Shown here: piece by piece, positions 9,556-11,978 of the stretch | How the letters are laid out: the number at the start of each line of letters is the position of its first letter | How positions within the stretch are numbered: the first letter of the stretch is position 1 | The notes under the pieces: model-generated | Told to the model about the DNA's origin: nothing | Database searches by the model: none | The model's input: the letters and a program-made list of their open reading frames with translations, nothing else | Position numbers and translations under genes: made by a program | NCBI GenBank assembly: GCA_022574415.1 | Contig: JACZSC010000004.1 | Span: 1 to 36,528 of the forward strand | Source of the DNA: Nitrososphaerota archaeon | GTDB lineage: Archaea; Thermoproteota; Nitrososphaeria; Nitrososphaerales; Nitrosopumilaceae | Direction: 5' to 3' | Length of the DNA: 36,528 bases

Positions 9556-9577
9556 GATTTTAGCAAAGTAGTTTGCT

Positions 9578-9652
9578 GGGCCCATAGTCCAGATCGGTTA
9601 TGACGTCGCCCTTACACGGCGAAGATCCGGGGTTCAAATCCCCGTGGGCCCA
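9578..9652 (+). tRNA. tRNA-Val(TAC)
   Basis: The acceptor arms GGGCCCA (9578-9584) and TGGGCCC (9645-9651) pair perfectly and are followed by discriminator A. The anticodon stem TCGCC/GGCGA encloses the loop CTTACAC, giving anticodon TAC, which reads GTA. The T-arm GGGGTTCAAATCCCC is standard. It is 75 nt long, has no intron, and the CCA end is not encoded. Confidence 0.97.
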
Positions 9653-9708
9653 TTTTTAGGCTCAAAAATTTTAAGTCTAATTAAATATTTGGAATATTAA
9701 AACAAATT

Positions 9709-10701
9709 ATGCTAAACCAAATTGCAGCAAAAAAATCTCTAATTGTATCTATATTTGTACTATTTTCATTAATTTTTGTTGGTGGTGTGTTTGCCGCAAC
9801 AAATGAAATTGCAGTTGGCGCAGGTCAAGAACTGTCATATCCCTCTTGGTTAATCATCGCATATCTTGCTGGACTCTCAATGATTATTCTTCCATGTACA
9901 CTACCACTAGTTTTCATAATAATTCCACTTAGCATGGGAAAAGGCGGTAAGAAAGGTCTTTCAATGGCATTGCTTTTTGGCGCTGGTTTAACAATTACAA
10001 TTGCCTCTTATGGAATGGCAGTTGCGACAATAGGAAAAACTGCATCTTTAGATCAAATATCAACAATAATGTTTTTGATTGCAGGAATTGCCGCATTTGT
10101 TTTTGGCTTGTCACAACTAAAACTGATTTCTCTAAAGATGCCCTCATATTCTGGAACACCAAAATTCATACAAAATCGTGGAGATTACACAAAGTCTTTC
10201 TTTATGGGGCTTCTTTTGGGAAATGCTGGGGTTGGATGTCCAAATCCATTATTCTATTGGTTGTTAATCTACATTGCAGGAACTGGAAGTATTGAGGTGG
10301 GCGCTTCACTAGGATTGGTACATGGGGTTGGGAGAGCAATACCGCTTATTCTAATGTCAGCACTAGCTATTATTGGAATTAACGCAACAAAGACTTTGAC
10401 ACAAAAGAGAGTTTCAATAGAGAAAGTAACAGGCTGGATGCTGATTGTTATCGGTGCGTTTCTAATAATTAATGGTCTTCCACAAGGACATGAGTGGTAT
10501 GAGGAAACATTTGTTCATGAGGGATGGAATCGGCTGGTTGAACTAACACCCATTCCGGCAGAGTTTGAGATGGATGCACATGGACATGAACGAGATGAGG
10601 TGAAATCTTTAAAAAATTACATTCCTATAGTGCTAATTAGTTTGATAGTGATTCCAATCCTTTTCTATTTTGCTCGTAAAAAGTTAGAGGTATCAGCATG
10701 A
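9709..10701 (+). CDS. CcdA/DsbD-type membrane thiol-disulfide protein (330 aa)
   Basis: A polytopic membrane protein of the cytochrome c biogenesis (CcdA/DsbD) family, which moves electrons across the membrane to extracytoplasmic thiol proteins. The first hydrophobic segment (IVSIFVLFSLIFVGGVFAA) could be a signal peptide. Then come SMIILPCTLPLVFI and, much later, GNAGVGCPNPLFYWLL: the two intramembrane Cys of CcdA-type cores are in these Pro-flanked motifs. About six further helices are seen. A His/Glu-rich loop (about residues 263-298, including EMDAHGHERDE) is unusual and may bind metal. It overlaps the next gene by 4 nt (ATGA), so the three genes form an operon. Confidence 0.87.
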   Translation: MLNQIAAKKSLIVSIFVLFSLIFVGGVFAATNEIAVGAGQELSYPSWLIIAYLAGLSMIILPCTLPLVFIIIPLSMGKGGKKGLSMALLFGAGLTITIASYGMAVATIGKTASLDQISTIMFLIAGIAAFVFGLSQLKLISLKMPSYSGTPKFIQNRGDYTKSFFMGLLLGNAGVGCPNPLFYWLLIYIAGTGSIEVGASLGLVHGVGRAIPLILMSALAIIGINATKTLTQKRVSIEKVTGWMLIVIGAFLIINGLPQGHEWYEETFVHEGWNRLVELTPIPAEFEMDAHGHERDEVKSLKNYIPIVLISLIVIPILFYFARKKLEVSA

Positions 10702-10838
10702 AGGATCCAGTATGTGGTATGGAAATTAGCAATAAAGGAGAATCCATTACTCACAATGGTAAAGAATACAGATTTTGCTGTGCTAGTTGCAGATGGGCAT
10801 TTGAAAAGAATCCAGAACAATTTATTAAAAATGACTAA
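10698..10838 (+). CDS. YHS-domain protein (46 aa)
   Basis: ATG at 10698, overlapping the upstream stop, to TAA at 10836-10838. It starts MKDPVCGMEI and has EYRFCCASCRWAFEKNPEQF: the classic YHS domain, about 45 residues, found in metal-transport and oxygenase partner proteins, where C-x-M and CCxxC-type residues bind metal. It is missed if a longer frame-shifted reading from the GTG at 10714 is taken. It sits between CcdA and a thioredoxin-like gene, which suggests delivery or reduction of a metal site, perhaps copper, outside the membrane. The metal is not shown by the sequence. Confidence 0.9.
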   Translation: MKDPVCGMEISNKGESITHNGKEYRFCCASCRWAFEKNPEQFIKND

Positions 10839-11055
10839 AGTTGAAATTCTAACAACTCCTGGCTGTACAAATTGCAGTATAGTTGAGAAGATATTAGATG
10901 AGATGAAGATTCCATATCAAGTCATTGACGTAACTGAAAAACCTGAATATCTTAAAAAATTTCCAATATTTACTGCTCCAGGACTTGTAATTAATGATAA
11001 ACTTGAATTTACCGGCATTCCAAAAAAAGAAGAGCTTGTTGCTAAACTCATGTAA
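10831..11055 (+). CDS. Thioredoxin-like redox protein (thioredoxin_3 / redox-active disulfide family, 74 aa)
   Basis: The start is ATG at 10831, overlapping the YHS gene by 8 nt; a longer reading from GTG 10714 is rejected because it covers the YHS gene in another frame. The protein begins MTKVEILTTPGCTNCSIVE, with the active pair C-T-N-C near residue 12-15, and the cis-Pro is in FTAPGLVIN. The size and KLEFTGIPKKEELV end match small archaeal redox-active disulfide proteins. It likely supplies or receives electrons from the CcdA protein of the same operon, on the cytoplasmic side since no signal peptide exists. Confidence 0.87.
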   Translation: MTKVEILTTPGCTNCSIVEKILDEMKIPYQVIDVTEKPEYLKKFPIFTAPGLVINDKLEFTGIPKKEELVAKLM

Positions 11056-11093
11056 TGCTTTTTGTGTAGACTAGAATTATTCAGTTTAGATTT

Positions 11094-11978
11094 CTAAAAT
11101 CCTCTTAACCCTTTTGGCCTAACTACTTCTGGATGCCGTCTCATCCATGCAATTTTTTTGAGCATTGCTTGTTTGTCTTGTGGAAAAGTTCCTTTGATTG
11201 TATATGCATTAGAACCATGGTTTACTCTAAACACAATCTCTTCTTTGACATCGATTTGATCAATCAGATCTTCCAATTCATCTAGTGCTTCAGGATCAGA
11301 TATTGGAATAAATGGCTCTTCAAATTTTGTTAAAAATTCATCTTTAATTCCATTTTCCAAGTATAATGTCAGTGCACCTAAAAAATGGGGGGGTGATCTG
11401 TTGATTAGTCTTGCAGTGCCTTTAATGTGTTCTTTAGAGTGAGTTTTTCCACCAAGGCCCAAAATAATCATGCAAGACAAAATGTATCCGGCATCCTTTG
11501 CCTTGTTGCAAGCTTTTACTATTGTATCTGCAACAGCACCTTTAGTGACTTTTTTCAAAATTAGATCAGAACCGCTTTCAATTCCAAGATATAACATGTC
11601 TAGTCCGGCATCATGCATTTTCTTCAATTCTTCAGGAGTTTTCTTTAGTAGATTCATTGGCATTGCATAACATGAAATTCTTTCCAAGTTTGGAAAGCTT
11701 TTGTAAAGATACTCGACAATTTTTATCATATAATCAGTTTCTAAATTCAAGGCATCCCCATCTGCCAAAAAAATCCTACGTGTATCTGGTAACTGTTTTA
11801 CCATCATGTCCATTTCTAACTTTACTTCATCCCATGGCTTTTCAGAATATTCCTTAGATCTATACATATCACAAAATGAACATTCGTTAAATGAGCATCC
11901 TACCGTTACCTGAAAAATTAAGGAATTAGCTTCGGAGGGCGGTCTATACAATGGATACTCATAGTTTAATGCCATCAT
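11094..11978 (-). CDS. Radical SAM protein (294 aa)
   Basis: The [4Fe-4S] cluster ligands are in GCSFNECSFCDMY near residues 27-39: a Cys triad with 4 and 2 residues between, rather than the usual 3 and 2. The opening with YPLYRPPSEANSLIF and the motif EKPWDEV are typical of a radical SAM subfamily in archaea and bacteria of unknown role, often loosely labelled coproporphyrinogen-oxidase-like. ADGDALNLETDYM and LGIESGSDLILKKVTKG are SAM-binding loops. I cannot assign a substrate. Start: the first of two adjacent ATG codons. Confidence 0.85.
   Translation of the reverse strand: MMALNYEYPLYRPPSEANSLIFQVTVGCSFNECSFCDMYRSKEYSEKPWDEVKLEMDMMVKQLPDTRRIFLADGDALNLETDYMIKIVEYLYKSFPNLERISCYAMPMNLLKKTPEELKKMHDAGLDMLYLGIESGSDLILKKVTKGAVADTIVKACNKAKDAGYILSCMIILGLGGKTHSKEHIKGTARLINRSPPHFLGALTLYLENGIKDEFLTKFEEPFIPISDPEALDELEDLIDQIDVKEEIVFRVNHGSNAYTIKGTFPQDKQAMLKKIAWMRRHPEVVRPKGLRGF

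Follow-up and report, generated by a model that had tools for sequence, protein, structure and literature searches.

What could a CcdA-type membrane protein, a tiny YHS protein and a thioredoxin-like protein be doing together in an archaeon, and does copper have a part in it? The question is raised by three overlapping genes in the window, by which we mean the whole stretch of 36,528 nt that was analysed. The window belongs to an assembly of 1.34 Mb in 149 contigs that is 88.9% complete (G000, here called the window genome), and because this genome encodes an archaeal AmoA its owner is taken to be an ammonia-oxidising archaeon (AOA).

A conserved three-gene module

The genes follow one another on the forward strand. 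A tRNA-Val (TAC) gene at 9577–9653 (+; ARAGORN, Rfam RF00005) lies outside the operon, 55 nt upstream, and is the sole RNA element that Rfam found near it; the AT-rich gap of 55 nt (9654–9708, +) holds the stretch TTAAATATT, which by eye reads as TATA-like. The first gene (9709–10701, +) encodes a CcdA/DsbD-type protein of 330 aa, the second (10698–10838, +) a YHS/TRASH protein of 46 aa and the third (10831–11055, +) a Thioredoxin_3-type protein of 74 aa with a CTNC motif (Cys12/Cys15). The overlaps of 4 nt (ATGA, CcdA/YHS) and 8 nt (YHS/thioredoxin-like) given in the original prediction are exact in the sequence. It had also called a longer frame, from a GTG at 10714 to 11055 (+) and spanning both small genes, a false one that hides the YHS gene. 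The open reading frame list, Pfam and the frames of relatives agree that it is spurious: of 64 loci, 40 have the thioredoxin frame closed within the YHS gene, and the long GTG frame is accordingly rejected as a gene.

To place the operon among its relatives, a contig scan gave 47 loci and order- and phylum-wide searches added others; 140 were collected, and the 124 with a CcdA match above 100 bits reduced to 86 unique loci. Duplicates were removed only by identity over a 300-nt stretch, so some near-copies are still included, such as L022 and L134, the latter with zero branch length in the tree. Downstream genes were counted by similarity on the same strand within 2.5 kb of the ccdA start, with 6 of the 86 loci dropped for having less than 700 nt downstream. 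Among the 68 close loci (at least 57% identity, at least 700 nt of sequence downstream), ccdA is followed by both YHS and thioredoxin genes in 64, by YHS alone in three (L043, L045 and L116) and by neither in one (L041). The 12 divergent loci (47–55% identity) have both in three cases, YHS only in two, thioredoxin only in one and neither in six. As judged by eye, L109 has the order YHS–CcdA, and the thioredoxin gene of L102 lies further on; the automated count also assigned a YHS to L101, L103 and L104, which is unconfirmed, as neither their gene layouts nor a motif scan showed one. The ccdA genes of L101 and L102 overlap a gene whose N-terminal part is cupredoxin-like and whose second part is longer; no YHS is seen nearby, and the thioredoxin gene lies further downstream.

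CcdA and YHS genes overlap by 4 nt in 64 of 67 loci, and across 64 loci the YHS/thioredoxin spacing is -4 in 36, -11 in 18, -8 in four and another value in six. The YHS frame is under strong purifying selection: over 1750 pairs from 60 sequences its pN/pS is 0.18, while the other two frames give 1.69 and 1.38. Loss of the YHS frame in relatives, or separation of the three genes there, had been named beforehand as findings that would count against the idea, and neither was seen: the frame is kept and selected, and the arrangement supports the view that the three genes are one conserved module.

The module is nevertheless patchy and sometimes duplicated. Of 300 genomes searched in the order, 57 have a CcdA ortholog (E <=1e-20) and 190 have AmoA; 56 of the CcdA-bearing genomes belong to the 132 Nitrosopumilaceae sampled. 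A tight tie to ammonia oxidation was considered and rejected; as just 53 of the 190 AmoA-bearing genomes also carry the ortholog, the module is not needed for that process and is not general to nitrifiers.

Some further observations concern the surroundings of the module. The thaumarchaeal operon, or part of it, also appears on four contigs (L013, L017, L040 and L050) whose records name MAGs of Planctomycetota, Amylibacter, Saprospiraceae and Shewanella; these contigs are likely mis-binned. Downstream of the thioredoxin gene, L006 and other core loci encode a conserved protein of 83 aa (37 cluster members), and 25 loci a secreted-type protein of 150 aa with an HPH motif after the signal; neither has a Pfam match.

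The membrane protein and its two small partners

The first protein matches DsbD_TM (PF02683) with 39 bits against a gathering threshold of 27.1 (E 6.9e-10). Eight transmembrane helices are predicted from its structural model (pLDDT 77.5), and from a count of positive charges we infer a CcdA topology in which both termini are cytosolic and residues 257–300 (10477–10608, +) form a loop outside. Two cysteines predicted to be intramembrane form a conserved pair: Cys63 in LPCTLP (9895–9897, +) is kept in 66 of 67 close relatives and Cys177 in GVGCPNP (10237–10239, +) in 71 of 71, and each in 13 of 13 divergent ones. They lie on the two helices that carry the redox pair in CcdA and DsbD. The His/Glu-rich loop noticed in the original prediction is real, with H261 present in 71/71 close relatives and E265, H270, H291 and H293 each in 70/70, while the residues flanking the HxH vary. 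In divergent homologs H270 is retained (12/12), H261 (7/12) and H293 (3/9) less often, so that the HxH is often lost, and in the loop of L107 a Met-rich stretch replaces it.

Structural and profile searches add little to this picture. A PDB search with the CcdA model gave no confident match, a profile of the 38-sequence CcdA alignment found no solved relative, the proteins of the operon reach no NCBIfam family above its cut-off, and plasmid records yielded two weak matches to CcdA. The CcdA homologs of L105 and L106 (464–469 aa) have a long extra extracytoplasmic domain, and their genes immediately follow that of a copper-type P-type ATPase carrying GMTCAGC repeats.

The DsbD_TM match would also suit the canonical role of CcdA in cytochrome c maturation, where it serves haem ligation. 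We consider this highly improbable here, given that the canonical GWTPCxGP motif is absent and GVGCPNP stands instead, that the same genome has a separate canonical CcdA of 249 aa with GWTPCVGP and with a secreted-type thioredoxin (contig C85), and that relatives of the operon lie in a copper context, described below.

The two small proteins are clearer members of their families. The YHS protein matches PF04945 with 53.1 bits (gathering 30.3, E 3.1e-14), and its Cys6, Cys27, Cys28 and Cys31 (C-X20-CC-X2-C) are invariant in 22 aligned sequences. Its model (pLDDT 87.5) resembles the YHS domains of diiron monooxygenases and L24e-like ribosomal proteins and, weakly, the TRASH domain; YHS and TRASH domains can bind metals other than copper. 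The thioredoxin-like protein matches PF13192 with 53.2 bits (gathering 24.8, E 3.2e-14), has 1fo5 as its nearest solved structure and keeps its CxxC in 68 of 69 relatives, and falls below the curated cut-offs of both MJ0307 (TIGR00411, 44 against 92.75) and MTH895/ArsE (TIGR00412, 32.2 against 62).

Both small proteins are predicted to be cytosolic, because their sequences contain no signal peptide and because a fused YHS follows the positively charged C-terminus of CcdA. Such in-frame C-terminal fusions occur in L107 and L108, both CcdA homologs of one genome (G311), and they put YHS on an end of CcdA that is predicted to lie in the cytosol. Each fusion adjoins a divergent P-type ATPase that itself begins with YHS; Pfam confirms both L107 proteins, and the L107 ATPase is of the copper type (TIGR01511, 1e-177, NCBIfam). 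In plasmid records, relatives of YHS are found in haloarchaeal permease genes and in heavy-metal P-type ATPase genes, in record H3 near the end of the permease gene. YHS and thioredoxin also share a single frame in one MAG (L010), which may be a sequencing error. The original prediction had set the chemistry of the operon outside the membrane; that picture suits the CcdA loop and possible DsbA-like or cupredoxin partners outside, but not the YHS and thioredoxin-like proteins, which are predicted to face the cytosol.

Copper neighbours and a CopR-like operator

Co-occurrence with copper proteins was found in relatives, where CopR, cupredoxins, DsbA-like proteins, Met-rich proteins and Cu-ATPases are encoded beside the operon. 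Within 3 kb of the 86 unique loci, a CopR-type gene (HTH_AsnC plus Arc_trans_TRASH) is near 25, being divergent and adjacent in nine, and Met-rich, cupredoxin, DsbA-like and HtrA genes are near 15, 14, 13 and 10 respectively. The neighbouring regulator scores 47.6 bits for HTH_AsnC and 32.5 for Arc_trans_TRASH, both above gathering, and in several loci a DsbA-like gene lies 67–102 bp upstream of the operon. CopR-type regulators are rare (15 found in 24 complete genomes); one stands beside ccdA in G045 and G355, at 83–84 bp, and about 0.7 kb from a Cu-ATPase in G053, G293 and G299. Core-context copies, that of the window included, have instead a radical SAM gene and housekeeping genes around them.

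A Cu-ATPase as obligate partner was rejected, as the two show no association (Fisher p 0.72; 0.06, weakly negative, for close orthologs). Copper ATPases as such are common in the order: TIGR01511 is matched above cut-off in 168 of 300 genomes, and in 50 of the 132 Nitrosopumilaceae sampled, 44 of them strongly. These matches temper the blanket statement, published in PMC9723733, that AOA lack genes for Cu efflux proteins.

The palindrome TTTACAWWTGTAAA lies upstream of ccdA in many relatives, mostly 52–64 nt before the start. It was first noticed by eye and then counted at 83 of the 86 loci, those with less than 120 nt upstream being dropped, with up to two mismatches allowed; these counts, which are not independent of the discovery on the same loci, give the palindrome in 25/25 CopR-linked loci against 12/58 others, and in 5/38 core loci lacking CopR; the reversed palindrome, at the same tolerance, was found in 1/83 loci. 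Independent of the by-eye discovery are a genome scan, a reversed control on island stretches (below) and a published consensus. The genome scan gave 74 exact sites in 10 genomes with CopR and 14 in 14 genomes without (Mann–Whitney p 8e-5); genome handles and per-genome site counts behind the association figures were transcribed by hand from earlier scans. The consensus, whose form was partly known before the comparison was made, is that of Pyrococcus furiosus, whose CopR binds TTNNCAWWWTGNNAA directly upstream of the BRE according to the accessible part of PMC7830388; its half-sites are those of TTTACAWWTGTAAA, and it is one base wider. On the tree, operator and CopR linkage agree in three independent pairs and disagree in none (p 0.25; median, random pairings), too few pairs to decide the matter.

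Exact operator sites are concentrated in islands of 10–30 kb. Ten such islands (151 kb, six genomes) hold 51 exact sites, 45 of them no more than 200 bp upstream of a gene start, and none for the reversed control. Sites with at most one mismatch precede genes for cupredoxins, DsbA-like and Met-rich proteins, CopR itself and CcdA-YHS-Trx, and further for HtrA, a YHS-headed Cu-ATPase, a multicopper oxidase and a ZnuA-like protein. The operator-studded islands themselves (L167–L176) carry cupredoxins, multicopper oxidase, Met-rich proteins, DsbA-like paralogs, HtrA and ZnuA-like proteins, and apparently represent a wider CopR-like regulon in Nitrosopumilaceae. By its upstream operator, the operon of CopR-linked relatives belongs to this putative regulon, and the link of these regulated copies to copper through their context is well supported.

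The copy in the window is different. Operator-bearing promoters are of the type TTTACAWTTGTAAA, whereas the window-type promoter has no operator: no TTTACAWWTGTAAA lies upstream of the operon within two mismatches, the best within 180 nt having four, which is chance level. The whole window contains three matches at two mismatches where 3.39 are expected by chance, one of them just downstream of the operon (11085–11098), and it shows no enrichment of a loose CopR-like 14-mer, TTNNCAWWTGNNAA, with 3 occurrences against 1.44 expected. A search for CopR in the window assembly gave no hit. With neither operator nor CopR in the assembly, the copper role of the window copy rests on orthology. The tree joins it to three near-identical records (support 100), and the resulting group is sister (86) to 26 sequences, the root not being inferred; as 24 of the 26 have the operator, the topology suggests that the window copy lost it. 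A second copy in the window genome, on contig C21, is cut by the contig end, lies behind a DsbA-like gene and has an imperfect operator (two mismatches). An exact operator is also present on contig C105 of this genome (L183, 400–413), an assembly where no CopR-type gene was found, and precedes a small secreted-type gene and a DsbA-like gene. The original proposal of a copper route is thus upheld in part: the context, the shared operator and the YHS-bearing Cu-ATPases beside CcdA-YHS fusions point to copper, but the window copy itself does not have the CopR-type operator.

Proposed function and known systems

We give about an even chance to the reading that the operon encodes a thiol relay across the membrane, linked to copper, in which YHS is the cytosolic metal-thiol partner. 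The cytosolic thioredoxin-like protein would pass electrons through its CTNC motif to the CcdA-type protein, whose Cys63 and Cys177 would carry them across the membrane; outside, their destination may be DsbA-like and cupredoxin-type copper proteins, or else copper sitting at the conserved His/Glu positions of the loop, with the outcome that thiols and copper are kept reduced and transferable. YHS, at the inner mouth of CcdA, would act as a cytosolic thiol-metal binder, most likely of Cu(I), that buffers copper or hands it over. The window copy, being unregulated, would presumably do the same job constitutively. That copper is the bound metal, the direction in which electrons and metal flow and the role of YHS are all read here from sequence and gene context.

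The same parts could serve general extracytoplasmic thiol reduction, in which CcdA and the thioredoxin-like protein reduce DsbA-like proteins, YHS binds zinc or iron or is structural, and the copper genes are hitch-hikers in the islands. The closely placed upstream DsbA-like genes and the many core-context copies without CopR and operator (33 of 38 lack the operator) fit this, but the genome already has its canonical CcdA with a secreted-type thioredoxin, and the operator, the adjacency of CopR in relatives and the YHS-headed Cu-ATPases beside the fusions would be left aside; we regard it as rather unlikely.

Another alternative makes CcdA a metal carrier, moving Cu(I) between the outer HxH/His/Glu (or Met-rich) site and YHS by way of the paired cysteines, with the thioredoxin-like protein only resetting thiols. 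The fusion of YHS to the cytosolic end of CcdA, like that of YHS relatives in the haloarchaeal permease and P-type ATPase genes, speaks for it, as do the invariant outer His/Glu site and its Met-rich counterpart in L107; the DsbD_TM family moreover includes a named efflux permease, ArsG, although against that model (NF040495) the operon's CcdA scores just 27.9 bits with a cut-off of 200. We judge such a carrier to be unlikely, since the conserved CxxC of the thioredoxin-like protein and the DsbA-like neighbours fit electron transfer, and import would be odd under a regulator that, in the accessible part of PMC7830388, activates copper-detoxification genes in Pyrococcus. That CcdA-YHS represents a copper transporter of a new type in AOA, within the CopR-like regulon and made up of an outer His/Glu (or Met-rich) copper site, a two-cysteine gate in the membrane and a cytosolic YHS acceptor reduced by its own thioredoxin, is in our estimate distinctly unlikely. 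If true, it would help to fill a gap, as no copper uptake or detoxification genes are known in Nitrosopumilus maritimus. A conserved module with a defined operator in a CopR-like regulon supplies specific genes, and a promoter element, for experiments.

Each part of the operon belongs to a known family. The literature searched yielded no description of the coupled trio, of the fusions or of their setting within a CopR-like regulon of marine AOA, an absence that weighs little as subscription papers lay mostly outside it; the accessible part of PMC13003922 has no mention of CopA, TRASH or thioredoxin.

Set beside known systems, the operon shares with the CcdA/DsbD transmembrane domain (PF02683, PF13386) a common fold family, two intramembrane cysteines and a partner thioredoxin, and differs in an added N-terminal helix, a C-terminal His/Glu loop with an extra transmembrane helix, the GVGCPNP motif and a YHS partner or fusion. 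ArsEFG (NCBIfam names) likewise joins a DsbD_TM-type protein, the permease ArsG, to a small thioredoxin-like protein, ArsE; the operon's proteins score far below the ArsG and ArsE (MTH895) cut-offs, and the operon adds YHS and a copper context. Scs (suppressor of copper sensitivity), with its DsbD-like ScsB, is what the operon is proposed to be, a membrane thiol-electron relay linked to copper, and to our knowledge has no YHS. The archaeal cop system of Sulfolobus and Pyrococcus (an HTH-TRASH regulator CopR, a TRASH/HMA chaperone and CopA) has in common with it a CopR-type regulator, a small TRASH/YHS protein and operator half-sites TTNNCA/TGNNAA upstream of the promoter, but the regulated unit here is CcdA-YHS-Trx, often without CopA, and the centre of the operator is WW rather than WWW.
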